The notes beneath the pieces were generated by a model. That model saw nothing but the letters and a program-made list of their open reading frames with translations, searched no databases and was not told the DNA's origin. Of a DNA stretch of 64,000 nucleotides, positions 13,947-57,258 are shown one piece after another. Source of the DNA: Liolophura sinensis (Eukaryota; Mollusca; Polyplacophora; Chitonida; Chitonidae); the NCBI RefSeq assembly GCF_032854445.1, contig NC_088297.1, positions 9,324,163 to 9,388,162 on the forward strand, in the 5' to 3' direction. A program made the translations under genes and the position numbers. Position 1 is the first letter of the stretch. Every line of letters begins with the position of its first letter.

Positions 13947-14142
13947 CTTCCCAGATGAAAATTGTGAGTATCTAGAGGACGATATCAAAGCGAAATTATG
14001 GGAGTTACGCTGGAGAGAGTGCAGAATAAATTTGCCTGTATTATCGGAGAACTCTGCAGTGAGCCAGACATCTTATCACAGTTTGCAATATGGGTGGATT
14101 TGAGAATAGCAGAGTACAAGTCCAAAGGTTACATATCTTTAG
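13947..14142 (+). CDS. Head exon A1 of an unrecognised two-copy gene (coding part 13998-14142)
   Basis: The acceptor is 'ccttttacag' before 13947; the donor 'gtgaga' follows 14142. The first in-frame ATG is 13998, with an in-frame TGA upstream, so the start codon lies in this exon and a 5' non-coding exon should exist further upstream. It encodes 48 residues (MGVTLERVQNK...WVDLRIAEYKSKG) and ends in phase 1. I do not recognise a named domain; it looks like a compact helical segment. Exon A2 at 54151-54295 has the same length. Codon comparison by hand gives 16 synonymous differences and 3 amino-acid changes, which argues for real coding under constraint. A six-codon upstream reading frame starts at 13956. 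Confidence 0.8.
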
Positions 14143-14951
14143 GTGAGATTCATAGATTAGCTCTTGTGTGGTATAGTGTTTTACACAACACTTGTAATTA
14201 TTTTTTTGACACCTGACATAGCGGGTTCTTGTGCTTGTTTGGCCGTTCGCATTAAATGTTTGCTGAAGGCCAGATTGCTTTCTGCCACTAAAATTGCTTG
14301 CAAGTCTCATATGTCATACATGTGTACAAGACAAATGACTTGCTGAAGGTTGGTGGTTTTCTCCGGATACTACATGAAGAAAACTTGAAAACAAATTATA
14401 TACGAGAAAAATTCTTGAATATGGTGTTGAACAGCGATCAGATGAATAAATAATGTGGTGTTGCATAGTGATCAAATGAATAATACAGCACTGAACAGCA
14501 ATCTAATAAATAAATAATAAAATGAAGTGAAATAATTGAACAATTTAAAGTAAATAATAAAATACATGTGAAATGTAATAAAATGTTCATTGCAAGCAAC
14601 AGGCCCATGACATTCGCATGAGTACACATATGTGAATCAGATTGTTTTTGGTTCAGCTGCAGGCTTAATAGACCATGAAGTTTATATCTAATACCTGACT
14701 TGAAGGGTAAAGGTTTCCTCCCCCTATAAACTAGTCTCTCTAAACCAGACTCCTAACCTACTGGTCTTCGGCCTGTCGAAATACCTATCACATTCATACA
14801 CAAGTGGTCAGTGATGTAATCAGTGTTAGCCAATGAATGCTCCGTACGAGAAAAACAGCCTTCGCGGAAGACTACAAACTTTCATTGGTTGAAGTGGGGG
14901 GTGTGTCTTATTAATATTCATCATAAAGAAAGAACTGGTAATTTAAGTAAG

Positions 14952-15260
14952 ATGTCAGCTGAAGAACACGAATGCAAGGAAATTAGCAGAGAAGCCGAGG
15001 CCCATGTTTGTCAGAAATTCAGGATAAAGGAGCTGCGCACATATCAGAGACAGTGTCTGCAAGCAGTTATACAGGATAAAGATGTTTTTGTGTGCCGGAA
15101 GACTGGAGCAGAGAAACAATTATGCTTCCAGGCGCTGACAACGGTAACCTTATACCAACAGTTACTACAGCAACAAGTCAACTGTCATTTACTGTTTACG
15201 ACTTCCCGCCAGGAGATAGTAGAGTCGTTTCCATTGGTTGACCAGGATTATGTTAAATAG
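14952..15260 (+). pseudogene. RecQ-like helicase N-terminal fragment
   Basis: 103 residues beginning MSAEEHE. The segment FRIKELRTYQRQCLQAV then DVFVCRKTGAEKQLCFQAL matches the Q motif and motif I region of RecQ-type DEAD/H helicases. The Walker A stretch, normally TGxGKS, reads TGAEKQ, so the phosphate-binding GKS is lost. The frame ends soon after and the remaining helicase motifs are absent. It sits in the intron between A1 and B1, so it is probably a decayed insert from a transposon-borne or retroposed helicase. Confidence 0.6.
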
Positions 15261-15492
15261 CTATGTTTCATCACCATATGCGAGATGTGCCGGCTTTTCT
15301 GCAGAGGTTGAGTAGACTTATGGCTACAGTCCTCTGCTTAAGGAGAGTACCTATAAACATATCCACGTATGTTGTCTTGAGTGTAGTTTAAAACCCCAAT
15401 CAGTCAAAAAAATGATTTTTATTTGCTCTGAAAATTCATTTGATTCATTCAGTTGTTCACTTAGCCATTCATTCATTCAATTATTTTTCTAG

Positions 15493-16122
15493 ACTGCTCG
15501 GGAGAGAATCCAAACCCCACCTGGCTAAGAGGGTTTAGACCACCGCCTTCTAATTGCAGCTCAAGGGAGAGAACCCAAGAGATTCATGATATACCCAGAC
15601 TTGATCAAAGACACCGTAGTGGATCGCATCAGAAGGTGGAGATATCCTGGGACAAGCAGACTTCACCTGTCGTTGTTTCCGACAGACTGTCTCCAGAGAT
15701 GGTGATGATTAAGCAGGAAAATGCAGATGTACAAGAGGTGCACCCTGTCGGTGTGATTCACACAAACGCCTCGCGTAAGAGAACAGTAACAGGTGGCGAT
15801 TCTCGTCTATTCCCCTCCCCTTCATCCTCAAACAAAATCAGACGAACAGACCCCTATGGGACAAGTGTCGATCGTTTGTCTGGAGCTGTGTTAGAACCTG
15901 TGCATGAGAGCCTCATGTCAATTATTGGGGGTGGTGATGCGGAGGACAGGGGTGGGGACAATAACAGTACCATTCCTACATGCACATATACGGACTCAAC
16001 AGCCTCAGGTCATGCTGACAATGCTCAAAACAACAGCTCAGTACATTTGCCCTCAACGTCCTCTGACGTAATGCCATCAACAACCAGGGGAGATAACTCT
16101 GCATCTAGTCATGTCTCTACAG
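15493..16122 (+). CDS. Exon B1: Ser-rich linker with SUMO-type motif
   Basis: Acceptor 'ttatttttctag', donor 'acag|gtgagc'. It is 630 nt, entering and leaving in phase 1, so it can be skipped without a frameshift. Spliced to A1 it starts DCSGENPNPTWL. It then has a psi-K-x-E motif (MVMIKQEN, IKQE), a basic RKR, an SNKIRR patch that may be a nuclear signal, ESLMSIIGG, and a Ser/Thr/Asn-rich end. B2 (55333-56034) shares the same landmarks in the same order (DCSGEDPEPGWL, IKDE, RKR, QSLMSIISG, EDNS). No folded domain is recognised. A transcription-factor linker is inferred from the SUMO and basic motifs and from the exons that follow. Confidence 0.8.
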
Positions 16123-16199
16123 GTGAGCGCAGCCTTTTTTTATGTGTTTACATGTTTCAGTAATTAATTGGAGGGTGGGGAAACATCATCACAACCACG

Positions 16200-16345
16200 T
16201 CAGCATAATGTAACCAGGTTGGTTGTCTTGTCTGGCACCTGCGTTGTGATTTTTCAGTGGTGGCTGCACTTTGGCGGCATGAACTCGCGCTGCCACAAGA
16301 AGAAACAGTAATTATGACTCCACGTTGTCCTATGACTGGAGAATT
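16200..16345 (+). mobile_element. Degenerate SINE family 3 fragment
   Basis: It matches the 3' half of the copy at 39785-40110: 'cagtggtggctgcactttgg', 'cggcatg...ctgccac', and 'atgactccacgttgtcctat' ahead of 'gactg'. No tail or target duplication is visible. Confidence 0.55.
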
Positions 16346-16924
16346 CAGGGTTTTCATTTAGAATTGGTGAAGGAGGTCAAAGTTCAAAAGTAGGCGGCTG
16401 AATTGAAAGTAACTATTGATTTAAATAGTAAGAACATTCCAAGTAGGCGGCTACGGGGACGGCAGAAGACACCTGCTGCAGCCCGCTACTCGCCCTTTTT
16501 GAACATCCTGAGAATTACAGTGTACAAGTATAATGTAAAACCCAAGCCATTTACATACACCCATTGTCAACAGAGTTGCGGGCCCTTGTACATCTCAAGG
16601 CACTGTTCTTGAACAACCCTTCGTGTAAATGTATCTGCAGTAATTAGCTGTGGGGATATCACCAGTAATCTGATATCTCTTATGCAGCTGTACATGTATG
16701 TTATCTGTAACAGTGTACACATGTAAACACGTACACGTTTGTATCAGTGAGAAATATGGACATATGTGTATGTCTGTCAGACAAGGTCCTGTACTGTGGG
16801 TTGAAATCAACCTTTTACATTGTGCATTTACCAGGGGGGGGGGTTAAAACACTGGTAGTAAATGTACATGTAGTTTAGTTAAGCACTGATATACCCTGCG
16901 ATTAATGGTTAAAAGGGGGTCTGT

Positions 16925-17045
16925 GTGGCCCAGTGATTAGCATGGTAGCACAGCGCAAAGTGCCAATGTGATTACTGTGAGTTCAAGTACAGCCCATGCT
17001 GGCTTGGTCTCCGTTCGTATGTGGGAAGGTCTGACATCAGCCTAT
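16925..17045 (+). mobile_element. SINE family 1, head fragment
   Basis: A tRNA-like start ('gtggcccagtgattagc', 'cacagcg', 'gtgagttcaagta') followed by 'catgctggc' and 'gtgggaaggtctg'. The 3' part is missing. Confidence 0.7.
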
Positions 17046-17609
17046 AGTACATGTAGCAAGGATACAGGTTGAGACTGAACAATTAATAAGGCATGTACAT
17101 GTAGAAAGAAGAGGTCTGCAGTTGTAAATAAAGATGTTTATACATGTAACTTTGGCTCTTAAGTTACATGTAAAGCATGCTAAAGCTTGGCTCGAGGTTA
17201 AAGAGCAGGTTTTTAGCTCACACTCCCTGCAGACGGAAATAATTATATAAGCTTTGCTTTTTAGTTTTATAGCTTCTGTCATGTTGCTTCATGTCTGTTT
17301 GTTGTTTTTTAGTTAGGTATTATTTAAGTAACTCAAATCAGTGTTATATGCTATTCTGCTGTGGGATATTTATCACAGCTGGATGTTCATGTATATTTCC
17401 TGTGAAATGCTTTCAAAGTACATCCAGTGACTCGGATGAGTGGAAGACCTATGAATGAGTTAATACATGTATGTAGGCTTCGCGATATGAGGTGAGCAAT
17501 GGCTTGCATCCACCTCACACATGCGTAATTTTCAGATATACAGTGTATACATGTAGGCCTTGTGATATGAGGTGAGCGATCGTTTGCACACCCCGCAGGC
17601 TTGCGCACC

Positions 17610-17695
17610 CAACAGGCTTAATGCTGGCCGCCGTCGTATAAGTGAAATATTCTTGAGTACATCGTAAAACACCAATCAAATAAATGAATAAATAC
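17610..17695 (+). mobile_element. SINE family 1, tail fragment
   Basis: 'taatgctggccgccgtcgta', 'gtgaaatattcttgagtac', 'gtaaaacaccaatcaaataaa', then an AAAT-type tail. 5' truncated. Confidence 0.85.
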
Positions 17696-17705
17696 ATTTT
17701 TGTGT

Positions 17706-17772
17706 AATTCTTGATGGACTAACCCTGTGAAAATAAACAAGCTAAATATTCCTGCTACAATTGCATGTACAG
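17706..17772 (+). mobile_element. Fragment of the 23.4/26.9-kb MITE family
   Basis: 'gatggactaaccctgtg' and 'ctaaatattcctgctacaat' parallel the interior of the MITE at 23427-23671. It is directly followed by the 25-bp minisatellite. Confidence 0.5.
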
Positions 17773-18560
17773 AGAATGAATCTGAATCAGTGTACAAAGA
17801 ATGAATCTGAATCAGTGTATAGGGAATGAATCTGAATCAGTGTACACAGAATGAATCTGAATCAGTGTACACAGAATGAATCTGAATCAGTGTACAGAGA
17901 ATGAATCTGAATCAGTGTACAGAGAATGAATCTGAATCAGTGTACAGAGAATGAATCTGTATCAGTGTACAGAGAATGAATCTGAATCAGTGTATAGGGA
18001 ATGATTCTGAATCAGTGTACAGAGAATGAATCTGAATCAGTGTACAGAGAATGAATCTGAATCAGTGTATAGGGAATGAATCTGAATCAGTGTACAGAGA
18101 ATGAATCTGAATCAGTGTACAGAGAATGAATCTGAATCAGTGTACAGAGAATGAATCTGAATCAGTGTATAGGGAATGAATCTGAATCAGTGTACAGAGA
18201 ATGAATCTGAATCAGTGTACAGAGAATGAATCTGAATCAGTGTACAGAGAATGAATCTGAATCAGTGTATAGGGAATGAATCTGAATCAGTGTACAGAGA
18301 ATGAATCTGAATCAGTGTACAGAGAATGAATCTGAATCAGTGTACAGAGAATGAATCTGAATCAGTGTACAGAGAATGAATCTGAATCAGTGTATAGGGA
18401 ATGAATCTGAATCAGTGTACAGAGAATGAATCTGAATCAGTGTACAGAGAATGAATCTGAATCAGTGTACAGAGAATGAATCTGAATCAGTGTACAGAGA
18501 ATGAATCTGAATCAGTGTATAGGGGATGAATCTGAATCAGTGTTCACAAAATGAATCTTA
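17765..18560 (+). repeat. 25-bp minisatellite, about 32 units
   Basis: The unit is tgtacagaga + atgaatctgaatcag. A variant with 'tgtataggga' recurs at about 17816, 17992, 18067, 18167, 18267, 18392 and 18517, spaced by 3-7 units. That pattern shows higher-order duplication of unit blocks. Confidence 0.97.
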
Positions 18561-18779
18561 ATCCATGTACACAGAATGTATTAAACAGTTGAAACTGTGA
18601 GTGAAAAAAGGTTCAGTCCAGAATGAAATATGAAAATCTTTAAACATTAGAAAGAATACATGTACGTATATATTATTGTCAAGAACAATATGGTTTGGAC
18701 AAAGCATGAAAGAAAAAAATAAACAAACACATTTAGAAAGCAGTTTTTGTTTGAGAAGTTAACTATCTTGAATAAAACT

Positions 18780-18889
18780 TATTTATTTGATTGGTGTTTT
18801 ACGTTGTACTCAAGAATATTTCACTTATACGGCAGCAGCCAGCAGTATGGTGAGAGGAAACCGGGCACAGCCCAGGGAAAACCCATAAC
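18780..18889 (-). mobile_element. SINE family 1, left part, split by a hAT element
   Basis: On the plus strand it reads tail to head from 'ttatttatttgattggtgtt' to 'gaaaacccataac', where it is cut by the hAT insertion. It resumes at 21266 ('cataaccatacacaggttgc') and ends near 21295. Confidence 0.88.
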
Positions 18890-21265
18890 CAGGCCTTGAA
18901 ATATAAGGAGCGCGATCGCGCTCGCGCTCCTACGCGCACCTAAACTCATTTTGGGGAGCTCTATAAATCGCACGCCAGCCGCCGTGACAGGGGAGGTAAC
19001 TTTAGGCAAACTCTTCTGTGTTGAAGGTGACAATCGTTGCCTCTGCAAGGCGAAAGGGAACGGCATGTGTACTGGTTAAGTGCACCGTACAGAACATTCA
19101 CGCTCTAGTCTTCAACAGGATGTCTTCCGTGAAGCTAAAAACCTTCCTTGCATGGCCAACAGGAAATGTGATAGGCTACAAAACGAGTAGCGAGGATGGA
19201 CTGACGCAAGTGACTGAGGTGTGGTGCAAAACCTGCGCTGCTCACGAGGCGCAGTTGGTACCCAAGCTCCATGGAAGAGCTGTCGCTGACTTCATGAAGT
19301 ATACAACGGGAACCAGCTTTATTACAAAACACACCGTCATGCGGCACCTTGAATCTAAAGTGCATCATATGGGTGTCGAACTTGAACAGTTGGCTGAGAC
19401 TGCTTTAGGTCAGGCACTGAAGACTGGTCAGAAACGCTTTGGAGATGAAACTTATCAGAGTGAGAGTAACCAGAGACCGGGCCCGGTGGCTTCTAAGACT
19501 ACTGTCACTAGTACACAGCCGAAAATTGACACTTCAATCAACAATGCAGCAAAAGATGCCTACAGGTGATTAATTTTTATTTTTTTTTAATTTTTTTTTT
19601 TTATTTGTTATTTTTTTTAAACACAGGCATGCAGTTTTCAATGTTGCTCAGCCCTCAAATGGCTCCATGTGTATAATTTATAAAACAAACTGCATGTATT
19701 GTACATTGTCTGTTTCTGAAAGCATTGAGTATTCAATGATACAGGTTATTTATCTGTCATGTGAAAATTAATGAGGTGTTCACTGGTTAATCATCATTCT
19801 TTATTTCTTTTTCAGAAAGCTGATTAGAACTGCTTACTTGTTAGCAGCCAGAGGACAACCAATGTCATCATTCCGAACGAGTGTGGAAATACAGAAAGCT
19901 AATGGTGTTCAGCTAATTTCTGGTAAAAGCAAGGTTGATTGTGATACTGAGACAGAAATCCAAGGCTCTGAGACTCACTCCGTTGTGAACTTACCTGGGA
20001 GTGTTGTTCATTTATCAGACTCTGACTCTTCTTCTGAGTACATGGACTGTGATATAGAGTCATAGAATGAACAATGAACATTGATTCATATCCGTCCAAG
20101 CTGGTGAACAGTGAACATTGATTCATGTCATTCATTTTTTTTTAATTGTTTTGTGATTTGCTGTTTCAAAATTAAAATGCTGACTTATTGTCCATGTATT
20201 TGGTCGAGTTTACTTAAAATAAGAATTATAAAATTGCACCAAAATCTAAAATTGCAGTCTGAGACCAGATTCCATACCATAATATTAAGTTACAGTAGAA
20301 CTTGGATATATCAAACCTCATGGGGCCAGTGTTTTCCGTCTGTTATACTGTGAAGTATGTCATATGTACATTTTTGTAGTATCAGTACAGAAATTTAGGC
20401 ATTTTATTACCTTGGGGCCAAATCTTTTGGTACAAAATTAAAGGAGGATCCAGTTTCATTTAGGCAAGGCTGGTATCATACAATTATATAGGCAAGTATA
20501 TGCAACTTCTAATGTAGTTGGTGCAATTTTACTGTGATTGGTCTATATTTTCAAGTAAATAAAGTTGATCAAATTTTGCCGCTTTGCATTAAGTACAAGA
20601 TCTTAAAATTTTGTTGAAACTTAGCCATGCAGGTAGTATCAAAGTTTCCATTCAATTTGAAACTGATCAATTGTTAGAATTATTACACATTTTTTCTCAG
20701 AACCATATTGATTCCTATACCCCTTCCCTGTCGAGACATCAATATTTAAACTAGGACTATAATAGGAGTTCATCATCAATGAATTAATTTAACCCAACAC
20801 TGCAAATTACAATTAATCCTGAAGAAAAAACGAACACAAAACACATGCTTTCAGCAGCTAATTACATCTTTATTGGGCAACAATGATGACTTCTCATATC
20901 TTTTGGAATTATATGCTGTTATTTTTTTTATTATTATTTTTTTTTTTCACAGCATTCAATGACACTTCTGACAATGACACTTCTGACTTGTGCTGTCTTC
21001 TGGTATTGAATTTACCCTCATTAAGACACCTGTTATCCACCCATGACCATGCAGGCCCTCAGTAAAATAGTCCAGGTCAAAGCCATTTAACTTACCAAAA
21101 CTATGGCAGCCATGTTTATATAGATTTTCAGTTTTTGTATATTTTATGAAATAGCTCTCCTGAAGTAATTTATGAGGACTATTTCCAGGAGAGCTTTTCA
21201 CACTCCTTGCTGAAATAAGGAGGACTGAAAATAGCACTCCTGGGATTTTCAAACGACGAGGCCTG
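18890..21265 (+). mobile_element. hAT-related transposon, 2.4 kb, inside a SINE
   Basis: The left end CAGGCCTTGAAAT and the right end AGGCCTG (inverse CAGGCCTCG) are short imperfect inverted ends. The flanks share CATAAC (18884-18889 and 21266-21271), extendable to CATAACCA if the terminal CA is counted as target. This fits the 8-bp duplications of hAT elements. Removing the element and one duplicate restores an uninterrupted SINE. Inside is a two-exon gene with a zinc finger but no catalytic domain (19120-20065). Confidence 0.75.
19120..20065 (+). CDS. Truncated hAT-transposase-like zinc-finger protein (exons 19120-19565 and 19816-20065)
   Basis: Exon 1 starts at ATG 19120 (MSSVKLKTFLAW). 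Its donor 'tacag|gtgatt' follows 19565, phase 2. Exon 2 follows the acceptor 'ttttcag' at 19815 and restores an Arg codon. Exon 1 carries VWCKTC...TVMRHLESKVHH, a C2-H2 (BED/TTF-like) finger as found at the N-terminus of hAT transposases. Exon 2 starts KLIRTAYLLAARGQPMSSF then VEIQKANGV, the family's 'RPF...LqkaNG' segment. The protein then ends in an acidic Ser-rich tail (SDSDSSSEYMDCD) and stops. The RNase-H catalytic and dimerisation regions are absent, giving about 231 residues. It may be a DNA-binding relic or a transposase-derived repressor. Coding structure is likely; function is unknown. Confidence 0.65.
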
Positions 21266-22935: not shown

Positions 22936-23426
22936 AAGTGATACATGTGTAACGTGGAACGACATAAAACTTGTGTCACAAATACAGCATCTGTTTATCA
23001 TGCACTGGACATCGGAACAAGGTAGCCAACAGTTCCTATCTTCCTAGACTTTTCCCAAGATCACCTGTTGGCTGACAGATTTCGCAAACCACGCTGGAGC
23101 GTTTATCTGTGTCAGACGTCTCGGAAGGCCATGGTAAGTTATCTTCTAACCTTGTACATCAAAAATGTAGACATGAACCATTTTATACTGAATTTATAGT
23201 TTCTGGTAATCTAGATTTTCTATCTTTCAGGTGATGATGGTACATATAAGCTCGTGTCTAGAACAGATTCCCTTGACTCTTGTGTAAGTTAGTACTGAAT
23301 GGATAATTGTTCCCACGCTTACATTTCAACAGTCAAATTGGTGTCTTTCACCATCAGTGTAGAACTAACCCTTCCATGTAAATGTATCTGCTTTATGTAC
23401 TCGGAACCATAGGGTTATATTTCAGT

Positions 23427-23671: not shown

Positions 23672-23679
23672 TATCAATT

Positions 23680-24714
23680 AAATGAAGTATTATTACGTGT
23701 ATTTTGAGGATCAGTAACATGATTGTTAACGTGATGGAAATCATGTTTAATTACATGTAACAGTTTCAGTGTAATAAGTGTAGTACATGTAATAATAAAT
23801 CAAAGAACTGACTGAAGTTAGGAATCATTGCTATGCTTGCATCTTACCAAAATGTGAAATTTGATATAAATGGTTGTTGCTGAACCCCAGTATTTACATG
23901 TAGCTTTGTAAGGCAAATATACCAGTTTGGACTTCCTGGGCAATAAACTATAGGCAGTATAGGGGTGTTACATTTTCACATTTATAAGTTATCTAATCCT
24001 CTGTAGAATCGATCCAAGATGAAGGTTTGAGATCAATATTTACGTGTGTCATTTCATTAAATGAATGGACTGCTCAAAAACTGTAGATTACGGTCAAATT
24101 TTCGGAATCATCATTCCGTATATTTGCATGTAAGTCAAATGAATAAGCATGCTACCAAAGAAGTGATCAAGTTGTAGGGCAGTCACTCATGTTAGTATAT
24201 TTGTATGTACCTTTTCATCTAACAACTGCTTGTTCTGCGAGGTCTCTTAACACCTACTTAACTTAAGTGAAGCTGACTTCTTTCCAAACACAGAACTACA
24301 TGTGCATTGTGGAAGGGCTTTTAATAGCTGTGACAAAGATTTTTAGAATTCTTTTACATGTTGAACGGTTATTTGCTCTCGTTTAGTAACAATAATCTTT
24401 TCTAAACAGCAGACATGATTTTTTTCCGCTTTTTCTTTGTTCAGTTTCGATTAATTTACCTGTTTTCCGTTTTTTTTTTTCTGTGTAGTAACATTTTGTA
24501 AAGTTCCGATTTATTTCCTCAAAATAAAGTCGAAGATTCTGTCAATTTGCCGATGCATGGCTACCGAAATCTGGCATTGCCGGAGGTTATAATGTTATCT
24601 GAATGGAGTCTATTGTCCAGTCAGATCGTGTGTTTCATTAAGCCGAACTGTTTCAACCAATCGGGAACAAGATACCATTATTCGAAGGCAGAAGCAGAGC
24701 CAGCCCGGTCAAAA
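23680..24714. other. Intronic spacer, no gene seen
   Basis: No recognisable gene, RNA or repeat. It lies in the presumed long intron between exon B1 and the BEN module, just upstream of the second hAT relic. T-rich runs occur at 24418-24480. Confidence 0.4.
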
Positions 24715-25645
24715 ATGGCGGCAACGTCTCGGAGTATCGTGGATCGATCAGATAAAGATTTTGATGCGCGTACAGTGGACAAGGGGTTGAAAAACATCTG
24801 GAGGTGGGATTGGCTTGAACGGAAGGTCGAAGGGGAATACGTGGGAAAATTCATGAGGAAGATAACATCAGCCGGTTTGGCTTTCTGCGAGTTGTGCCAC
24901 AAAGATGTGCATTATGGGGGTTGCGGATGGAAGGCGCTAGCACAGCACATCGGCCAGAAAATTCACTGAGATAACCTGAAATTACGGTCGTCTAACTACA
25001 GTCTATCTGGTAAGTTCTGTTCCCTTATCAACATTCAGGGTGGAGTAAGGTTTAGGGGTCCTCCAGTAAGCCCATTGTAGTCGGACAATAGAGGCGGACT
25101 TGAATGAATGGAGTGACGTAGAGGGCCGACGGACCGTTATTCTTTACCAGTTCCACCTGTGCAGAGATGATCACGTAGTAAGGGAGGTAACTCCCCACTC
25201 TTATCTTCTGCTTGTTGGTCAGCTTTTTGAACTTTCCGTTAAATATCAGGCTGTTCTGTCCTGTTTCCATGGACCCCAGGTTGAATCTTCCTTCAATGTA
25301 ATGAATGACGTCATTGATGCCAAATCTGGGAGACTCAACATTGAAACCTACCAAGCCATACAAAACATAAAATGTGGTTTGAAAGCTTCTGGTAAATCTG
25401 CTGTGGAGTATTTCAAGAAGAGGGACCATCTCCATGATAAGGTTGATCACACTCTTGTGAGGAATGTCAAGCGATCATTCAGCCAGTATAAGGCCATTCT
25501 TGAAGAGAAGAAATCAGTTGCCACAGAAAAACAGAAACAGCTGGACATTAGGGCACAGAGCACTTTGACGAAAAGGAAAGCCAAGGAGTTGTGTCAAAAG
25601 GCAGCCAAGAAAGCCAGAGTGGAACACCATGGTGCCATTGAATGA
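24715..25645 (+). pseudogene. hAT transposase relic: N-terminal finger and C-terminal dimerisation piece, core deleted
   Basis: ATG 24715 opens 85 codons (MAATSRSIVDR). The end of that frame, FCELCHKDVHYGG...ALAQHIGQKIH, is a C2-H2 BED-like finger. A TGA at 24967 stops it, but the same frame continues in family-like sequence to a good donor (ctg|gtaagt) at about 25011. From about 25085 a second frame ends at 25645. It contains LSCFHGPQVESSFNVMND and KSAVEYFKKRD, resembling the hAT C-terminal dimerisation region, then a Lys-rich tail. The roughly 400-500 residue catalytic middle is missing, since only about 115 bp separate the pieces. A GC-rich end-like stretch (25905-25985) may mark the 3' side of the element. 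Confidence 0.65.
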
Positions 25646-27117: not shown

Positions 27118-27299
27118 TGCACTAGTGAGTTAGACATTGTTTTCTATCATTGGCATACAATGTTTAGTTCATAAGACTGGTTCATTTGATTTATTTATAT
27201 TTATTTATTTTTGAAAATGCTCAGTTCCACTCAGTAAATCTGTTCTAACAAATGTGTTCATTTTTTTTTTATGACAGACATTGTTTGTCAGAGAAACAG

Positions 27300-27549
27300 A
27301 TATTATGACAAACACTTCATCTGACCATAACAGAAAACCCCAACATATCTTGGGCTCAGTAAATCATGACACCAAAACTGTTGTTGACCACAAGGGCCCA
27401 TCACTAAGGGAAGACACACTACCACATGGGTCTAGTTCGTTACCGTACAAAGTGACTGAGGATGGTGAAGGCCGTGGCCGAGTAACACAGTACGAGCACT
27501 CAGACAGGGTCAGAAAGGACATGGTGCATAAGTGCAGCAACAAATTCTT
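27300..27549 (+). CDS. BEN-module exon 1 (linker exon)
   Basis: The chosen acceptor is 'gagaaacag|at', the only nearby AG that keeps the phase-1 frame open from exon B. It gives DIMTNTSSDHNRK and ends KCSNKF in phase 2 before 'gtgagt'. Upstream AGs at 27277 and 27290 would run into a stop if entered in phase 1. 250 nt. The content is polar and charged with no domain. It joins cleanly to 29134. The main uncertainty is the exact acceptor and whether exon B1 is the true upstream partner. Confidence 0.6.
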
Positions 27550-28186
27550 GTGAGTCTTCACAATTTGAATGGCATTTCTTTACAAGTATATGTACTTTAT
27601 TTCACCTAAAGTTCAGCAGTTTACTTGATTCTTGCTACTGATTGATCCCATCTTATAGGGCCACTTATGGGATACATGAGACATGGTTTTTGTTTTTTTG
27701 CTACATGTTGTGTTATGTGTCTGTAAATATGGCTTTAAACTGTAGTTTCCTAAGGCCCCAGCGGTCAAGCAGGGGTAAATTAAGTAGTCTGACGTGGGGA
27801 AGGCAACTGTGATAGCTGTCAAAATAACTTTGCTGTAGGGTAGAGCCAGAGTTGGAGGCGCCAAGCTGGTACCGCATTTGATTAATTTCTTATGAAAAAC
27901 TTGGCACCAAGGGCTCTTCTGTATGCTTCTGAATGTGCATTTTTACATGCCAGTCTTCAGTAGAAGTACAGTAAATTTGCAATGTGTAAAGTATACGTGG
28001 TTAGAAGTTTTTCCTTTTTTCGCAAAAGCGGAAGAGTAAAATGTGGCTCCATTAATAGGGTTACAATGATTTTGGACAAGAAAACCTGTAAAATTTGTAC
28101 AGGAATACATTGCTCAAGAGGGGAATATTTGCTTAAACAGGTTGGTTGCAAGCTGTTTAAAAAAACATAATTTCTGTTGTTATGTG

Positions 28187-29052
28187 CTGGATTGGAGCCT
28201 GCAACTTTATTGTGTCAGTCCTTGCTGGCGATCCAACTGCCAGAGCAAGATTGGAGCTTGCAACTTTATTGTGTCAGTCCTTGCTGGCGACCCAACTGCC
28301 AGAGCAGGATTGTAGCCTGCAACTTTATTGTGTCAGTCTTTGCTGGCGACCCAACTGCCAGAGCAGGATTAAAGCTTGCAACTTTATTGTGTCTGTCCTT
28401 GCTGGCGACCCAACTGCCAGAGCAGGATTGGAGCCTGCAACTTTATTCTGTCAGTCCCTGCTGGCGACCCAACTGCCAGAGCAGGATTGGAGCTTGCAAC
28501 TTTATTGTGTCAGTCCTTGCTGGTGACCCAACTGCCAGAGCAGGATTGGAGCCTGCAACTTTATTATGTCAGTCCTTGCTGGTGACCCAACTGCAAGAGC
28601 AGGATTGGAGCTTGCAACTTAATTGTGTCATTTCTTGCTGGTGACCCAACTGCCAGAGCAGGATTGGAGCCTGCAACTTTATTGTGTCAGTCCCTGCTGG
28701 TGACCCAACTGCCAGAGCAGGATTGGAGCCTGCAACTTTATTGTGTCAGTCCTTGCTGGTGACCCAACTGCCAGAGCAGGATTGGAGCCTGCAACTTTAT
28801 TGTGTCAGTCCTTGCTGGTGACCCAACCGCCAGAGCAGGATTGGAGCCTGCAACTTTATTATGTCAGTCCTTGCTGGCGACCCAACTGCCAGAGCAGGAT
28901 TGGAGCCTGCAACTTTATTGTGTCAGTCCTTGCTGGTGACCCAACTGCCAGAGCAGGATTGGAGCCTGCAACTTTATTATGTCAGTCCTTGCTGGCGACC
29001 CAACTGCCAGAGCAGGATTGGAGCCTGCAACTTTATTGTGTCAGTCCTTGCT
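28187..29052 (+). repeat. 59-bp minisatellite, about 14.7 units
   Basis: The unit runs gagcaggattggagcctgca + actttattgtgtcagtcctt + gctggtgacccaactgcca. Since 59 is not a multiple of 3, the three frames cycle into one another every three units, and all three are stop-free. This creates several overlapping open frames that I regard as artefacts. It lies 82 bp before the next exon. Confidence 0.97.
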
Positions 29053-29133: not shown

Positions 29134-29205
29134 GCCCTTTCATCCAGATGAATATGTGAAAATTGGAGATGATACAGAGCCTCTGTTGTTAATACCCAAA
29201 GAAAG
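29134..29205 (+). CDS. BEN-module exon 2 (72 nt)
   Basis: Acceptor 'ttgtctgtgacag'; donor 'gaaag|gtattt'. It enters and leaves in phase 2. Translation: PFHPDEYVKIGDDTEPLLLI then PKE, joined to R of the next exon. It supplies the acidic stretch immediately before the BEN domain. The frame is consistent on both sides, which supports the exon despite its small size. Confidence 0.75.
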
Positions 29206-30120: not shown

Positions 30121-30411
30121 AGATATATCATTGCCAGAAAGAAGAATAGTCCTTCCTTGTTCATCAAGAAACTGATTGATGAGTTCTTTACCACAGAGGA
30201 ACTCGTGTTCTCTAATGAGTTCGGCAATGGATCTTTAGTTCTCAAGGATGGGACTATCATGCGGATGCGTCGCCTTGACCCTAGGAAGATCAAGGCTATC
30301 AAGGAGACCATGGAAAAAGAATTTCCGGGACAAAGAAACAATGCGTCAAAATTCTTGTCGGAGAAAGCACGGAAGATGCGATACTGTTACAGACAAAGGC
30401 ACAATATTTGA
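30121..30411 (+). CDS. BEN-domain terminal exon
   Basis: BEN domains bind DNA or mediate protein contacts in chromatin factors. Acceptor 'tgtgttttacag'; the first base completes Arg. The exon then reads YIIARKKNSPSLFIKKLIDE, FFTTEELVFSNEFG, and LDPRKIKAIKETMEKEFPG, followed by a basic end and a stop at 30411. The order Lxx-Lld-x-fFt-xeEL-xxSN-G...LDpxKi-xaI...fP is the BEN pattern. It covers nearly the whole exon (about 95 residues). It is the last exon of the BEN-ending transcript A1-B1-27300-29134-30121. An AATAAA lies near 30694. Confidence 0.78.
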   Translation, partial: RYIIARKKNSPSLFIKKLIDEFFTTEELVFSNEFGNGSLVLKDGTIMRMRRLDPRKIKAIKETMEKEFPGQRNNASKFLSEKARKMRYCYRQRHNI

Positions 30412-33400
30412 GTCCCAGATTAGTTTCTGCGTTTTTGGTTTGTATTGTTTGGAAAACACATTTTAGTCATACACAGGGCTTTGAATTCTGAGCTGAGCTA
30501 AAAAAAAGAAGTGTTGTTGTTAGGCTTAAAGAGCCGTTCCTCTTAGGGATGTGTTTCATTCATCAGTCTGACTGATGCAAATTCAAGGTGAGATGTCCCT
30601 ATATGTCGGAAGTCATGCCCAATCATGTGGGCTGAAATGATTTGAAAACTGGCCTCTAGATACATTATCACCTTATGTGACAGCACTAGAATCAAATAAA
30701 ATCTGTCAGCAATGGTTTTCTCCTCCTCCAGTTGTTTTGGGCTTTTCCACTAACCTTGAGCCCCATCAGTGACATAAGGTTCTGGTGACCTCAATCCATG
30801 ACCATGAATTTCTGTAATGACCTTCAGTTCTTCACGTGGCCATTAGAAAATGTTTGGAATGTACCTCATGCCCTGGGATCACAAAACAATCTTGGGCTTG
30901 GTCGAAATTTTAAATCACTTGAAAAATTCTTATTTGTTGTGTAACAAGATCGAAATATTGCTCAACAGTGTAATTTTTGGGTAAGTTATTGTAATACAAA
31001 TTTCAGAAAAAATAACAGAAAGGAACAAACCAAGTTTAATGATTGAAATTTTTACTTGAGTATAATGTTGCTTGTTGATCCCTGGGCCAGGAGACTAAGA
31101 TTATATATGTACACTTAAAGCCAAGATCTCACCACCAGGGCTGTAAATTTGAGTGTGAAAGCATATAAGATGATGAGAGAAATTCAGTCATTTCCATGCA
31201 GAGTAAAGCCCCACGTAATTAATGCATGTATAACTTGATGATATGGAAGGAAGGTGAATCAGGCGTGAATTGCCCATCCTGTAGCAAAATGGGACAAATT
31301 TAACAAAGGTGTTGGGATGAAATCCCAATGTGGCCAAGAAAACAGCTGACGTGCCGAAATTTCAGCATCTATTCTCATTTCACCAAGTTAGATAATGATA
31401 AGTACTGTTCATTGTGAACGCTGATAAATTTGCTGATTTAATTGCCAAGAGTTGCTTATCTTGCACAGAGACCTCTGAAACATTGTTGATGTGATGTTAG
31501 TCCAAAGATTCCTTAGGTCTTTAAGAGGCATTTCGTACATAACTTAAATACCGGCTACGTATTTGTTAAAAGTCCCCCAAACATGCAGAATGTGTCTGCA
31601 CGAGAATGTACAGGTCAGTGTGATTCGTAGAATACATGTATCAACCTTCTGGCTTGTGGTTTTTTTATCCTGTTGTCCTGTTTTCAAAATATCCTGTCTG
31701 AGCATAGCTTAAAATTTTACATGTTTTTATAAACTCATCTCATTGTGTAGCCATATACAGTAGATGAAATGTACTGAGGCCGCTTGTTAAGGGAAGAAAA
31801 CATGGAGAAGAACTTTGTTACTTGTTTGTTTTTCTGTTATTTTATTCATTTTTTGTATCCAGTGAGTGTCAGTGAAAACAAAAAAAGGCTATATAATGGC
31901 ATTGAATTAGATCCTTAACCTTCTAGTTACATGACTGTTATAAGGTAAAGCCTTTATTGGTATTTGTGGTCATTATTTGTTTTGACCAGTTTTGGAGGGT
32001 GATAATTTCATCTGTTATCTTGCTTTAATAACACACATACAGTTTATACTGTGTTGTGTTCCTGAGCGTGTTGAAATAAATGTTATCAAGTTTTCAACTG
32101 ATGTGGTTTTGTTATTCTCCTCTATGGATTTTGTGTTTGCATTATACCTTAATTAATCATTATGTTTTATGTAAAGCAATGTCAGTGCCAGTTAATTTCT
32201 TCCATGCCTAATTCCTACCCTTAAAGAAATGATGTGGTTAGTTACTTCCTTTCATGCTATGTTTTTTTTTTTATAGTAGGTATTTTCATGCTTCACGTGA
32301 ACCATTCACATGAACAGTTACTTTCTTCGCTGCTTAGTTCCCATTGGGAATTTCTCTCGGGGCATTTTCATGCCTTCATGTAAAACAATGTCATGAAGAT
32401 TTGGACTGAGGAGGCGAAAATGACACGTGCGTTGCACATATCAGTATTGTCGATTCTTGGTATTTGGTAGAAATATAAGGTCAAATGCCTGTCTCTGGGG
32501 GGTGTAGGTTGAAAACTCAGATTTAGAAGTGCCAAATTTTTAGCACTAAAATCTGTCCTCCATGTATACCAAGAATTGTAATTTAATATAAAGAATACGA
32601 AAGCCAATTTCCATCTGACATCCACTGATTTGTTCGCCGAATTTACATTACGTTCTTGTTCCTGATTCACCTAAGCATAGGTTGAGTTATCCCTTAGCTC
32701 AGAGTAGAAACGTTGAGTTATCCCCTCCAAGGTCGGATTTGAAGTATTGAGTTACAGGAAACAACGAGTTAATAGAAGAGATCAAAATGCAAGAGATCGA
32801 TATTGCACATATATGGAACAGTAGTAGTGACACACGAAATATCGTACGACAAATGTACGATAAAAAATGTCGTGTGCCGCTTTGTGAAGGTGGCCTCTGG
32901 TGTGTATATGGTAAGTGATGTTCGACAGTGGAGTATGTCTTCTGGAGAATGATTTCATTTGAATTTGCATCCTGTTTATGTTATTTATGAACTTTATGGG
33001 AAATTTGTATACATGTATACGATTGCTATAGTGATGGGTGTTCTAGTTGACAAATTGTATCATTAACAAATTAAGCGCTTCGACGATGTGCCAGAATGTG
33101 TAACACCACAGAAGACTTGCACGATAGATAATAAGAGGAGAGCAGATATATACACCTGTTTTCCAGTAGTTGAGTCCGAGAATTCAAAATTCACATATAA
33201 ATTGACAAACCTTGCCAAACTCGAAGAATAAGTATCTCAAATGCAAAATGTAGAACTTTTTTTTTGATGTATAGATGCATACATGTGCGGCTTATTTTGT
33301 AAGATTGGCCAGTGTTCGTAACGTGTAAAGTGCATTCCTTGGAGGATGCCCTTCTTTCTGTTGTATCAATCCTACTAATTGCACTTTTCCATGCAGCGAC

Positions 33401-33849: not shown

Positions 33850-34175
33850 GCTTGACGTATTGTCTGACAGCAGATTGGCGCTCGATATATAGGGTAAAAC
33901 GTCAGCATCGAGTTATTTACCATCATATATGTATCTCACAGCAAGTTGCCGTTTTATATAGTTGACAAATTTGTAAAAGTCAATTTGGTTTTACTTAGTG
34001 TAATATTTGACAGCAAGTTGGCGTTGTATATAGTAGATATGCGTGTGGAAGTAAACATGGTTGAATTTAGCCTGATATCTGACAGCATTTTGACGTTTAG
34101 TATAGACATACACGTATACTTATAAATGACAGTCAACTTATAGTATTGCCTAACGTGATATCACATCTGGCAGCT
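33850..34175 (+). repeat. Degenerate about 70-bp tandem repeat
   Basis: The motif 'atctgacagcaagttggcgt' or close variants recurs near 33864, 33936, 34004, 34076 and, weakly, 34160. The units between are diverged. Confidence 0.65.
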
Positions 34176-34230
34176 TTTAAACTACTGCTGTTGTTGCTGC
34201 AGTTGCAGTCTTATCTTGGTAATTGTTACA

Positions 34231-34374
34231 GGCGAGACTCTCACAAGGCTCAAGCGGCATTCCTACCCTACCCTCAGAAGGTTTCTCTCGTCTCCGAGTG
34301 CAGTTGCCCGAGTCTATGGGCCATCAGGAAAGTGGAGTGTGCGCGAGCATTACCATCAGGCTCCCTGACCTTAG
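34231..34374 (+). other. Possible additional exon, no domain
   Basis: A good acceptor (tggtaattgttacag) and a donor-like 'cttag|gttagt' bound about 144 nt. Entered in phase 1 it reads GETLTRLKRHSYPTLRRFL and stops before the donor; another frame stays open through it. I do not recognise either product. It is GC-richer than its surroundings. Listed because of its splice-like borders only. Confidence 0.25.
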
Positions 34375-36317: not shown

Positions 36318-36475
36318 TGATTTATTTGTTTATTTGATTGGTGTTTTACGCCGTACCCAAGAGTACTTCACTCATACGACAGAGGCCAGCATTATGGTGG
36401 AGGAAGCCGTTCAAAGCCTGGGGAACAGCAACGACCATCCGCCGGTTGCTGGCAGACCTTGCCACGGTCACCATT
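36318..36475 (-). mobile_element. SINE family 1, 5'-truncated copy
   Basis: Plus-strand reading: 'tttatttgattggtgtttta', 'cgccgtacccaagagtactt', 'ccagcattatggtggaggaa', 'cgaccatccgccggttgctg'. It stops before the tRNA-like head. Confidence 0.85.
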
Positions 36476-37203
36476 TGTAAGACGATTTTGATATTGTGGT
36501 CTGTTGCTCAAAAACTGTATTCAAATTGTAACATACATCTCTGTAACGTGTGTAACATCAACCGAGTCTTTTAAAACTTCTAGTTACTCATAACGACTTA
36601 TAAAGATGACCAAAATTCCTTTTCTACATGTACTCTGTTGTTTCGTGGTGGTTTTTTGTTAACATTGCTTCGGAAAATGGCTTAGTGATTTCTGACCAGG
36701 ACTTTCCAACTGTGATTGCAAAAATATGAAAAGTTGACACCTTCGTTGTAGGTTGGCAAAAGTAAACGGGAAATTGGTTAGACCTACTTCGACTTCTTTC
36801 TTCGATATGATTATGGTACATTTAACCACAGGCATATCGGAACTAGGACTTACCTTCTGTCTGAATGAAAATGATTGAAACAGCAGTACTGTGGAGAAAA
36901 AAGAAAGAAACTGGAGACTATACTGTATTTTACCCACAGTTTCGACCATTTACTTATTTATGATTTGGATCATGACTAAGTTATTCATTTTACATGAATC
37001 AATGAGTTCTACAGGTCTTGAAAAGGTTTCGAGGTTTGTTTGGAATGTATAGAGTATTATTTTGGCGGGAAAGTCAAAGCACCAAGCGTAATATTTCATG
37101 ACCTATTTTGTCTTTAATATACTCGTTTTTTGTGCGAATTTGTAGGATAAATACGGTATTTGGCTGAGTCTCATCACCACCTTTTTGTTGTTACCCCTTG
37201 CAG

Positions 37204-37727
37204 GCGTGGTGGATGACGGGTTCTTGCCTAGATTCGGTTATTCGAGCCCACAGCAGACAGTTTACCCTCGGCGCCTGTCCTACCATAACATCCGGTCCAG
37301 AATCAATGCAGACCAAAAGACTCACCAGATTGTTAAGAATTTGACGAACGCTGTAGGCAACTTGGAACGCTGGCTGTGGAAGACGGCCGGCGAGTCTCGG
37401 AATTTAGAGGCGATACCTTCTGCAGAGCTCAACGAGTATCTTACCGAGTACTTTACAGTGGTGCAAAAACATTCAGGGGGAGAATACACCCCGATCTCTT
37501 TGACAAATCTCCGATGTCTTATAGAACGGTACCTGAAGGAAAAGAACTACGGATTTTCTATCATTCGCTCGCCGGAGTTCGGGTCGGCGCAGAGAGTGTT
37601 CACGCAGAGGCGTCAAATGTTGCGACAGCGCCAAAGTGCCGTGACTACTGCATCTCAGATTGAAAACGTTTTGTTGCTTGATGATTCTTATAGACCTAGT
37701 GCAACAGATCCCGAGAGTTCGTCCTAG
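37204..37727 (+). CDS. Terminal exon C1: Crypton-type core-binding domain
   Basis: Acceptor 'gttaccccttgcag'; entered in phase 1 it reads GVVDDGFLPRF and runs 174 residues to the stop. The central part (about residues 50-145) has LTNAVGNLERWLWK, IPSAELNEYLTEYF, an aromatic/Gly segment (SGGEYTPISLTNLRCLIERYL) and FSIIRSPEF...R. This 'elxxyLxeFfxxxxxxdGxeYxPxsL...RyL' pattern is what I know from the SAM-like core-binding half of Crypton tyrosine recombinases and the animal proteins derived from them (KCTD1, KIAA1958, QRICH1, ZMYM types). The catalytic half with the Arg and Tyr residues is absent, so DNA binding without recombination is inferred. AATAAA at 38437 is a likely poly(A) signal. Confidence 0.75.
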
Positions 37728-38436
37728 TGGCCGCCGATGCTGATAATTGTGATCAAGCGAATTTCCCGAGTCAGTGAATTAGAGAAAGTCTGTGTTTTTC
37801 CAACCGGCTGTCTCTACTGTCCAAATCGCTCGTAGAGTCACGTGCACATAACTGTATACACGTAGCGACCTTCAGGGCTGGCTTGCACGAAGACCTCTAA
37901 GCGTTGAATGCACGCAGCCACCATGCATAACCAGTACTATATGCATTATGTTGCCGTGGCTATTACGTTTGCTTGCAGGAAGACCTCTAAGGATTACAAT
38001 ATGAACATGTACACGTGACTACCTTGGCAAACCAGCACTATAGGTATGACCTCGCCATGCCAATTACCTGCTCGTAACGTCAAGATGGCCTCGTGCAAGT
38101 AAAGTCATAACGCCATCATGATACAATTTATTTAAGTGCAGTCACGGAACGCTACGAGGACATTGTGCTCGCGTGTGTTTTTGACGATACTTTTTTAAGT
38201 GTTAGAAAGCTGCGATCATAGGGTAGAGAGTAGAAAGCATGTTCGTAATTTCGCAGTTTGCTTCTAGCATAAAAACCATACTTCATATTATCACATGTTC
38301 GTGCAAATTGTACGAAGTGCGTTGTGTTTTGTTTTTTTGTTTGTTTTTTTTTTTGTTGTTTTTTTCCCCTTAGTGTAAAGACGTTATGTTCAATGCTCTG
38401 TTACGAATCTAGCTTTCCTATACGCTTTTTTTAAAC

Positions 38437-38442
38437 AATAAA
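38437..38442 (+). promoter_or_regulatory. Likely polyadenylation signal for exon C1
   Basis: AATAAA, 710 bp after the C1 stop, followed by 'agccttttaacgtgtgg'. Its position suits an exon C1 3' UTR. No transcript evidence. Confidence 0.45.
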
Positions 38443-38595
38443 AGCCTTTTAACGTGTGGAACCAATGACTTATGTTATTTAGTGATTGTTATTTTGCGTC
38501 ATGAAGTTAAAGCACCATACTGAACCTTATGTATAGATCATAAGATCAAGACGTAACGACCAGTACACGGCTTATCCCTTCATGTCATGCACCCC

Positions 38596-38695
38596 TAACC
38601 ATTACGGTGAGAGGAAGCCCGGCAGGGCCGGAAGGAAATCCACGACCATCCGCTGGTGGCTGACAGACCTCTCCACGTTCCGCCTGTAAACGTTA
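38596..38695 (-). mobile_element. SINE family 1 fragment
   Basis: 'taaccattacggtgagagga', 'agcccggcagggccgg', 'ccacgaccatccgctggtgg', 'agacctctccacgttccgcc' match the middle of the SINE. Neither end is present. Confidence 0.7.
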
Positions 38696-39094
38696 AGGTG
38701 AACTGGATTGGAAGTGTTTAATTATATGGTAGGATCTGTGCTTTATCCAGAAAGTGTAATACGTACAATGACGACCATACAGCTGACATCTGCCAAGATG
38801 ATACCTATCAAGTTGTAGCATTGAAGTGCTACATTCAGTGTTGTATGACTTATATTATGTCAGTATAATCTAGCGTATAGTACATATAGTCCACACTACT
38901 GTGTTATTGCTGACCGTGCAGAACTGATAAGCTCTACATTTAAATTTAGTTTGGATTTCTGACGTAGAAAATGTATATTATGTTGTCTGTTTCTTTCTGA
39001 CATTAGCTTTGTGGCTAGTAGATTATGAGTGACTGAAGACATGTTAAGTACGAGGTAAAACCCCCAAGCATGCATACATACATACTATGTTATA

Positions 39095-39465
39095 GGAGCC
39101 AGATTTGCTTGGGGTTTAACATCGTACTCAACAATTTTTCAGTCATATGACGAAGGAATCATTAGGGTGCATGTACGTGTAATGTGCCTCTTTGTTGCAG
39201 GACGGATTTCCACCGCTCTTTTATTTAGTTACCGGGGCGGCTTACTTGCCTACTTACCGAAGGCAAGTAAGCTGCCCCGCCCGAGCCATTATACTGATAC
39301 GGGTCAACCAGTCGTTGCACTATCCCCTTCATGCTGAACGCCAAGCGAGGAAGTTACAACTTAATCTCTTAAAGTCTTAGGTGTGACTCGATCAAGGATT
39401 GATCCTGGGTCTACCGGTCCCGAAGCGGACGCTCTACCAACTGTGCTATCCGGGCCGGTTAGATA
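39095..39465 (-). mobile_element. SINE family 2 copy with an internal inverted duplication
   Basis: On the minus strand it starts with a tRNA-like head ('cggcccggatagcacagttg', 'gtagagcgtccgcttcggg'). It shares 'cgactggttgacccgtatca' and 'taatggctcgggcgggg' with the copy at 44300, and ends with the common tail. A palindrome at 39233-39282 ('ggcggcttacttgcc' and inverse) is absent from the 44300 copy. Confidence 0.82.
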
Positions 39466-39784
39466 TTATACATTCATTTGTTGTCATCCTTCCATAAGCC
39501 ACTTGTCTATCCAGTGAAGTGTGGAGCATGAAATACAGATCAAATCCATCCATCAATATGGATGTGGCGAAACTGACCCATAAGTTGTGGGCCACGTGTA
39601 AAATAAACGTACATGTATTTTTTGTGCAAAGACTTTAGTTATTTATACCGCTTTGTTCAGGTTTTAATTAGTTATTATCAAGAAGTAAGGTATAATCCCG
39701 TCTCAAATAGAAGAGTCTGAGAGTTAAGAGTGCCTTTGTGCTAATGGGCTTACATGTAGTGTCATAACTCCAGGGACAAACGTG

Positions 39785-40110
39785 TAAAGCTTTACTACCG
39801 GGGATCAACCCAAGGTCGGGAGTCATGCCAAAGACTTTGAAAATGGTACTTGTTACTGCCTGGCTTAGTGCTCAGCACTGAGAGGTGAGAGCAAGGAAAC
39901 AGAACTGCTTGGCCCGGTGTCAGTATAAAGTGACTGGGTGGGGTGTCATGTCTGGTGTCTTCGGCATGATACTTCAGTGGCGGCAGCGCTTTGGTGGCAT
40001 CGCCCTGCCACGAGAAGACACAGCATATGAGCACAGATCTAATGGCTCCTCGTCATCATATGACTGAAAAATTGTAAAAGTACGACGTAAAACCCCAAGA
40101 ATGCATGCTT
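39785..40110 (+). mobile_element. SINE family 3 copy
   Basis: 'ggatcaacccaaggtcggga', 'gactttgaaaatggtacttg', 'gcttagtgctcagcactgag', 'gtgtcttcggcatgatactt', 'cgtcatcatatgactgaaaa', ending 'gtacgacgtaaaaccccaa'. The same family is seen at 50400-51200 and 16200-16345. Confidence 0.82.
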
Positions 40111-40808
40111 GCATGTAATGGGTCATCAAGGAAGGGTGCATATAGATTAATTTACAAAATCCAAAATACGTACTTCTTAAGTGAGAGAGTAAATCGGGCT
40201 GCTTGCGTCGTGTGGGATGTTTATTTTTTGTGTTATACCTGACTGCCTGGTGGAAGTCTTGTGAGTGAGACAATCTTGAGTAGGTATCGTCAGGTATATA
40301 GAATTCAGGACCGTGCCCCGGGACCATAAAGCGAACTTAAGTCAAAATTTCAAATCACTTTAAAATTTTGTTATTTCTTATGTAAAAGTGGTCATAATGT
40401 TGCTTGACAACGTAAGTTGTGGGTGATTTATTGTACAGCAAATTCCACCTAGAATACTGGAAAGGAATATACCAGATTTGATTATTGAAATTTTGGCTTA
40501 AACCTATAATCGCTTCGTGATCCCCGGGCCAAGGGTATATTCTGAAATCGAAATCTCACTTAAGCCAATATATAACACCTCGTTAAAATTCTTTAGTTTC
40601 CAGCACTGAACGATGGCATTTTGGCACATTCGCCATGACCTCACACTTGTGAGGTGGGCAGTGGTAATTTCTATCGCAGGAAAATAAGCTCCAAAGTCAG
40701 ATGTCAAATTAAGCGTAATCAGAAATGGCTGGTTTGTGGTCCCTGTGTTAGCTAAAGAGGATCATCCTTGAAGCTGTTTGAACCGTTATACATCCTATCC
40801 CGTTTCAG

Positions 40809-41296
40809 ATGAGGAAGACGACGCATTAAGACAGAAGATTCTAAGCCGCATTAACGTAGAAGACGAATTACAGTACCTCTACCCCAGAGCATATCCCAGT
40901 CGACTGTCCAAGGAAGCCGTCCGGAGAAGAGTCTCGAACGTCGGCTTACCTAAATCCCAGCAAACTATCATTAACATGGTCACAGTGGTTTGCCGACTGG
41001 AGAGATGGTGGTGGCTCAAGTACAACGAACATCGCCAGGTAGAGCGGATATCAGCGGAAGAACTGGACGCGTACCTTACCGAGTTTTTCACAGTTCTGGT
41101 GCGGCCTGACGGTCAAGAATTCGACGTGTGTCACTTGTCTAAGGCTCGTTCCAACCTCGACCGGTTTCTGCGTGAGTGCGGCTATTCTTACTCTATCTCC
41201 AAGTCCGAGAAATTTAGAGACAGTCAGGCTGTTGTCAAGAACAAGAGACAAATTCTGCAACAGAAACCATTTCGTGATGACTCTCATGCGACGTGA
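40809..41296 (+). CDS. Terminal exon C2: Crypton-type core-binding domain
   Basis: Acceptor 'catcctatcccgtttcag'; phase-1 entry gives DEEDDALRQKILSRIN and 162 residues to the stop. The core is QQTIINMVTVVCRLERWWW, ISAEELDAYLTEFF, RPDGQEF, SNLDRFLRECGYSYSISKS then EKFRDSQ and a basic end. It is paralogous to C1 and C3, with the same order of Trp, ELDxYLxEF, DG, RFL and SIxxSExF landmarks but a different N-terminal third. A tyrosine-recombinase-derived DNA-binding role is inferred; no catalytic residues are present. No AATAAA is obvious in the following few hundred bases. Confidence 0.75.
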
Positions 41297-57257: not shown

Positions 57258-57258
57258 T

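Follow-up and report, generated by a model that had tools for sequence, protein, structure and literature searches.

The 64,000-nucleotide (nt) stretch of the genome of the chiton Liolophura sinensis analyzed here (contig NC_088297.1, positions 9,324,163 to 9,388,162 of the forward strand; hereafter the window, with coordinates counted from its first letter) very probably carries two neighboring members of one large chiton gene family, gene 1 (LOC135463668) and gene 2 (LOC135463599), in which a head and a linker would be joined to a terminal tail chosen from many alternatives that each carry a stop of their own. In all likelihood, most of these tails correspond to the core-binding half of a Crypton-type tyrosine recombinase and lack its catalytic half. 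A previous sequence-only reading of this DNA had proposed one constant head with interchangeable BEN or Crypton-derived tails, supplied by alternative terminal exons. Judging from the sequences compared below, that finding is real and understated: the same design recurs family-wide, with two or more tails on one head in 19 of 33 gene groups.

For each gene, one database protein can be reproduced letter for letter from exons on the forward strand of the window. The coding part of the constant head exon of gene 1, A1 (13998-14142), comprises 48 codons and is identical to residues 1-48 of P0001, the L. sinensis protein LOC135463668 isoform X2, which was retrieved in a database search with 99% identity over 61% of a query joining A1, the linker B1 and the candidate tail C1 described below. 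A1 runs from the ATG at 13998 over 145 coding nt and ends in phase 1 at the donor TAG/GTGAGA. A possible 5' acceptor lies at 13946/13947, but the coding start is nonetheless placed at 13998, because the upstream frame contains stops and the ungapped nucleotide match between A1 and its counterpart in gene 2 starts at the ATG. The linker exon B1 (15493-16122), also part of P0001, spans exactly 630 nt in phase 1-1; it has a [D/E]CSGxxPDPxW-like start, contains a psiKxE (SUMO-consensus) motif, and is probably disordered, its predicted local distance difference test (pLDDT) values being low in the structure model. The remainder of P0001 is encoded by a 53-nt exon that leads from phase 1 to phase 0 (23231-23283) and by three exons placed through splice reconstruction of the protein, at 27278-27549 (phase 0 acceptor), 29134-29205 (phase 2 acceptor) and 30123-30411 (phase 2 acceptor), the last of which holds the stretch matching Pfam BEN and the stop, with an AATAAA at 30695. 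Since a direct splice from A or B to 27278 is out of frame, the 53-nt exon is a required adaptor. Together, these six exons yield P0001 by a single splice-site combination among those tried. The phases and length previously given for A1 and B1 were thus recovered, as were the stop after 30411 and the phase-1 acceptors and stops of C1 and C2; the adaptor likewise has a phase-1 acceptor, and may be the exon that the sequence-only reading, which gave no coordinates for it, called the first of its BEN module.

Gene 2 repeats this arrangement with a different tail. Its head exon, A2 (54151-54295), is 94% identical to A1 in protein and 85% in DNA, with nonsynonymous divergence (dN) of 0.036-0.041 and synonymous divergence (dS) of 1.04-1.09. 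Because dN lies far under dS, the head is a coding exon under strong constraint. The linker exon B2 (55333-56034; 702 nt, phase 1-1) and the Crypton core-binding-like terminal exon D (62771-63303), which has a phase-1 acceptor and its own stop, complete the reconstruction: A2-B2-D equals P0033, LOC135463599 isoform X6, and D matches residues 283-459 of that protein at 100%. No AATAAA or ATTAAA was found between D and the end of the window. Six further retrieved proteins carry the A2-B2 head with tails not found in the window, among them P0102 ('zinc finger protein 16-like'), which carries C2H2 fingers. Gene 2 therefore most probably uses D plus at least six tails located outside the window. 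The earlier proposal that several products share an N-terminus thus holds for A1-B1 with its BEN-like tail and, in the neighboring gene, for A2-B2-D, and no join of C1 or C2 to A1 or B1 was found among the database proteins retrieved.

A 50-bp minisatellite lies right after A2 (54296-54810, with a lone copy near 55085-55120) and repeats the exon end and splice donor. It provides 11 junction-like sites, including that of A2 itself, at a spacing of 50 bp (once 54 bp); nine retain TAG/GTAAT and two are altered at the GT, making up a row of possible decoy donors.

Splice sites and profile matches were also assessed across the whole window. Using a simple, purpose-made scoring matrix on the 4092 GT and 3859 AG sites of the forward strand, the donors of B2, B1 and A1 ranked 1st, 2nd and 22nd; for the acceptors, C1 came 4th, D 11th and C2 100th. 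Lower ranks were obtained for further sites of the two database proteins, namely the A2 donor (248th), the donors within the BEN-like tail (273rd, 96th and 317th) and its last acceptor (326th) and, hence, the splice score alone proves nothing. A tail profile in whose construction C1, C2 and D took part, so that its matches to these are circular and only the absence of others is informative, revealed no further Crypton-type tail in the six frames of the window, including the opposite strand, on which trans-spliced loci can carry tails. A profile of the head identified A1 and A2 as the only whole heads; apart from one chance row (E 0.6), its other matches fell on the first parts of B1 and B2 and on repeat fragments that follow A2. 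Two heads are found among four tails, all on the forward strand.

The Crypton identity of the tails finds support in both profile and fold comparisons. The tails match KIAA1958/Crypton recombinase in profile comparison (prob 99.4), the core-binding part of KIAA1958 being the best named tail match outside L. sinensis, and in its predicted fold D corresponds to the core-binding domain found in Cre and QRICH1. The tail profile also covers C1 and C2, which helped build it. C1, C2 and D all end where the core-binding part ends, and the catalytic-like PF12012 gave no match in the window tails at E up to 1; an active Crypton has a complete recombinase with an R-H-R-Y tetrad, and the window tails are without the catalytic part. 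Sequence searches with the tails and the whole-family profile against solved structures produced no relevant match, one of them listing a single row, a low-complexity match to TBP. The BEN assignment stood in part: isolated from the rest of the protein, the tail matches Pfam BEN (PF10523) with E 2.3e-4, and its 21.8 bits lie under the curated cut-off of 23.2, for which reason it is called BEN-like here. Whole P0001 scores 18.6 bits, and a paralogous tail, that of P0106, also matches BEN with 19.5 bits. No BEN row was prominent in a Foldseek search with the whole P0001 model, an absence that carries no weight as evidence. The A1 head alone matches no Pfam family and forms two helices in the model; a BTB domain was absent from all 20 proteins scanned (19 with the head, and P0118, which consists of a tail only).

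The family to which both heads belong was delimited from database searches. It includes 121 distinct proteins of L. sinensis that bear the head, all of them predicted models (isoform X numbering), through which the tails located beyond the window are known. The proteins were sorted into 33 gene groups by >93% identity over the first 110 residues; P0101 was split off by name, whereas P0016, P0102 and P0103, which bear other names, were grouped by head identity. The 121 are cluster representatives at 90% identity, so that each retrieved isoform differs by construction, and they derive from searches with length limits of 238-756 and 245-779 residues; a third search at 199-633 residues added only P0118. 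This protein and P0113-P0117 (KIAA1958 and one unnamed recombinase) are left out of the count. Since near-identical isoforms were merged and length limits applied, both genes and isoforms are undercounted. A search with the head alone scored 97 candidates from 5.8 billion sequences, and the 95 listed all stem from L. sinensis; a restriction to one species is not implied by this result, because the search was limited by length and proteomes of other chitons may be missing from the database; P0118, a relative of C1, comes from another source. No account of the family was found among the papers listed in searches of the open-licence literature, although it may still be published elsewhere, and in the L. 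sinensis genome paper, in which the species first appeared as L. japonica before the name was corrected, the terms KIAA1958, Crypton, splicing and isoform do not turn up.

Within the 19 multi-tail groups, isoforms are identical over their first 228-316 residues and diverge thereafter; one gene, LOC135463552 (to which P0016 was assigned by its head), is represented by 24 retrieved isoforms with numbers up to X31. If all tails of a gene follow one phase-1 donor ending in G, a tail can begin only with G, A, V, D or E. Among groups with three or more isoforms (95 of the 121 proteins), this was the case for 89 of 95 isoforms, against a background of 32%, and for 25-46 of 95 at each of the next seven positions. 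The six exceptions come from one gene, in which the shared prefix already ends in V. A direct splice from A to a tail, skipping B, which the sequence-only reading had allowed alongside the route through B, occurs in none of the 121 proteins.

Tails were classified for all 121 proteins, taking everything after residue 230 as the tail in the 14 one-protein groups. A Crypton-profile tail is present in 108, C2H2 fingers in four plus one weak case, a BEN-like tail in two and a CENP-B/Tc5 helix-turn-helix in one, with five unclassified. Classes are mixed within single genes: LOC135463852 combines two Crypton tails, one BEN-like tail and the CENP-B/Tc5 tail, LOC135463599 six Crypton tails and one C2H2 tail, and LOC135463699 four Crypton tails and one C2H2 tail. 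For 67 of 110 Crypton tails, the nearest relative resides in the same gene, compared to an expected 9.1 and a maximum of 21 in 2000 shuffles (D, being the tail of P0033, was omitted, leaving 110 of 111). Tail relationships thus suggest that new tails were mostly born inside genes. The psiKxE motif is found in residues 49-300 of 31 of the 33 gene representatives, and a chance origin was rejected, shuffled sequences giving a mean of 3.7 and at most 12 in 200 shuffles.

Several individual tails outside the window deserve description. The 724-residue protein P0105 (LOC135463632 isoform X1) has the one long tail of the family, which seems to retain an almost complete recombinase-like domain, with the H and R of HxxR apparently replaced, as assessed by eye against P0117. 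Three other tails, small domains that occupy this slot as well, are without a Pfam match and by eye resemble a transposon-type helix-turn-helix (P0097), part of SAMD3-type proteins (P0099) and a short basic segment (P0101).

Two Crypton core-binding-like terminal exons downstream of the BEN-like tail, C1 (37204-37727, 524 nt, AATAAA at 38437) and C2 (40809-41296, 488 nt, AATAAA at 41696), both on the forward strand, have unbroken frames from a phase-1 acceptor to a stop of their own. The first in-frame ATG of C1 comes only after 137 tail residues, and C2 has no ATG before its domain and one seven residues inside it. Given these positions, an upstream exon is almost certainly required for C1 and probably for C2, and the only family head upstream of them within the window is A1-B1. 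A separate gene was accordingly rejected for C1; the case is less clear-cut for C2, whose domain has no preceding ATG, yet has one seven residues in. On sequence grounds, we consider it quite probable that gene 1 uses C1 and C2 as unannotated tails. Several results weigh against this interpretation. Two database searches, one with A1-B1-C1 as query (238-756 residues) and one with a query string of A1, C1 and C2 (199-633 residues, the only one in which C2 itself was queried), returned no protein joining C1 or C2 to a head. Isoform X2 is the only LOC135463668 isoform retrieved, and the closest relatives of C1 and C2 are annotated tails of the paralogous genes LOC135463325 (45%) and LOC135463292 (43%). 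For C2, no close relative comparable to P0118 was found. These points would suit a scenario in which C1 and C2 are dead or orphan exons left by tail turnover and gene 1 makes the BEN-like form only. We regard this as improbable, given the intact frames with phase-1 acceptors, the many uses of the same kind of tail by paralogous genes, the fact that the closest relatives of both exons there are annotated as tails, and the comparison of C1 with P0118. The latter, a C1 relative from another source, lies on a 3.1-kb contig and reads like unspliced DNA; 156 of 173 residues (90%) are identical after the acceptor, against 7 of 35 (ungapped) just before it, the kind of drop in similarity that selection confined to the exon would produce. 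The isoforms might also be annotation artefacts, with separate neighboring genes chained to one upstream head. That they are predicted models speaks in favor of such chaining, which we nevertheless deem very unlikely: neither C1 nor C2 has an ATG ahead of its domain, just two heads stand among the four window tails on a single strand, and both the junction residue rule and the shared prefixes, which in each gene stop at a single position, fit alternative splicing from a single donor.

In the mechanism we favor, exon A, which encodes a helical head of 48 strongly conserved residues, and exon B, whose linker is probably disordered, would be spliced to one tail, all joins running through phase-1 junctions with a split codon starting with G. 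A minority of tails would provide BEN-like, C2H2, CENP-B/Tc5 or other small domains in place of the Crypton type. The head may recruit a common partner or oligomerize with it, and repressors may be brought in by the linker through its SUMO-type psiKxE motif. The tail would then serve as an address that points to a DNA site or to a partner already on DNA, and a single recruiter could in this way be directed to many targets. The main source of new tails would be terminal exons that duplicate within a gene and then diverge. Cre, BEN, C2H2 and CENP-B domains address DNA, and by analogy the chiton tails are probably DNA-binding. A less favored but credible alternative is that the tails do not read DNA and that, as in QRICH1-SEPHS1 (Zincore), the core-binding domain grips DNA-bound zinc-finger proteins or other factors; the family would then constitute a set of interchangeable co-regulators. 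Going by the title of a 2025 study by Bianchi and colleagues, Zincore reportedly binds zinc-finger transcription factors, and the predicted fold of D resembles QRICH1 as well as Cre. Somewhat more doubtful is a genome-defence repertoire analogous to KRAB zinc-finger proteins, in which transposon-derived tails would recognize transposons or invading DNA and the common head would silence them. The tails, for the most part of a transposon-derived kind, have multiplied inside genes and diverged, and the linker carries a SUMO-type motif, all of which suits this function; tail divergence is also expected, though, for developmental regulators such as lola.

The family can be placed among known systems. 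As in Drosophila lola, the constant N-terminal exons can be read on into any of several alternative terminal exons, which all have the same phase, a design that mod(mdg4), broad, tramtrack and fruitless share. lola has 20 predicted isoforms generated by cis- and trans-splicing, in which a shared BTB region is followed by C-terminal exons specific to each isoform, most of them with zinc fingers (PMC1947980). In the chiton, by contrast, the head is a two-helix segment with no Pfam match, the tails are mostly of the Crypton core-binding type, and the scale reaches at least 33 gene groups, with one gene represented by 24 retrieved isoforms numbered to X31. Because BTB was tested for and absent, the family is not filed as a lola homolog. 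In miniature, the same logic is seen in isoforms a and b of vertebrate KIAA1958, one gene with alternative Crypton-derived domains: these are different DUF3504 domains, 26% identical, encoded in separate exons uninterrupted by introns, in a report noting that the splicing lacked experimental confirmation (PMC3212892). The two KIAA1958 tails have the whole recombinase-like domain, whereas the window tails retain the core-binding part only, and by eye the chiton head has no evident similarity to the KIAA1958 N-terminus (P0113, P0116). A comparable core-binding domain occurs in Cre and other tyrosine recombinases, from which the three window tails differ in being without the catalytic domain. QRICH1, ZMYM2-4 and WOC have other N-terminal domains. 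They too are Crypton-derived genes (PMC3212892), but in the chiton the Crypton-derived domain is an interchangeable terminal exon. Compared in this way, the chiton loci follow a known swappable-tail logic with a different head, different material and a different scale.

The window holds several features besides the two genes. Between C2 and A2, an intronless frame of 404 codons on the reverse strand (46263-47477) encodes a rhodopsin-type G-protein-coupled receptor (PF00001, E 1.6e-33), and a UDP-glucuronosyl/glucosyltransferase frame (PF00201, E 1.2e-58) lies on the same strand at 2959-3870, adjoined by a 78-bp minisatellite at 4061-5289. Two forward-strand frames in gene 1 introns (24502-25645 and 19006-19569) appear by eye to be remnants of hAT-type or zinc-finger transposon-related genes and have no Pfam match. 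Further minisatellites occupy introns of the two genes, with units of 59 bp (28186-29050), 25 bp (17760-18540) and 21 bp (57193-57600).

On balance, we lean toward the view that chitons have evolved a combinatorial regulator system of their own, composed of a lineage-specific helical head in at least 33 genes and more than 120 interchangeable tails, mainly domesticated Crypton core-binding domains. If so, no larger repertoire of alternative DNA-binding (or partner-binding) ends would be known; it would expand through exon duplication and possibly act as a genome-defence or cell-identity code. The swapping of DNA-binding domains by alternative terminal exons is best known from arthropod BTB-zinc-finger loci; here it would operate in a mollusc, behind another head, with transposon recombinase domains as raw material and at a far larger scale. 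A single in-frame exon slot (phase 1, with a codon split after G) would let the genome capture and multiply domains, and the resulting natural set of about 100 related core-binding domains could help to show whether domains of this kind contact DNA themselves or, as proposed for QRICH1 in the Zincore work, attach to other factors.

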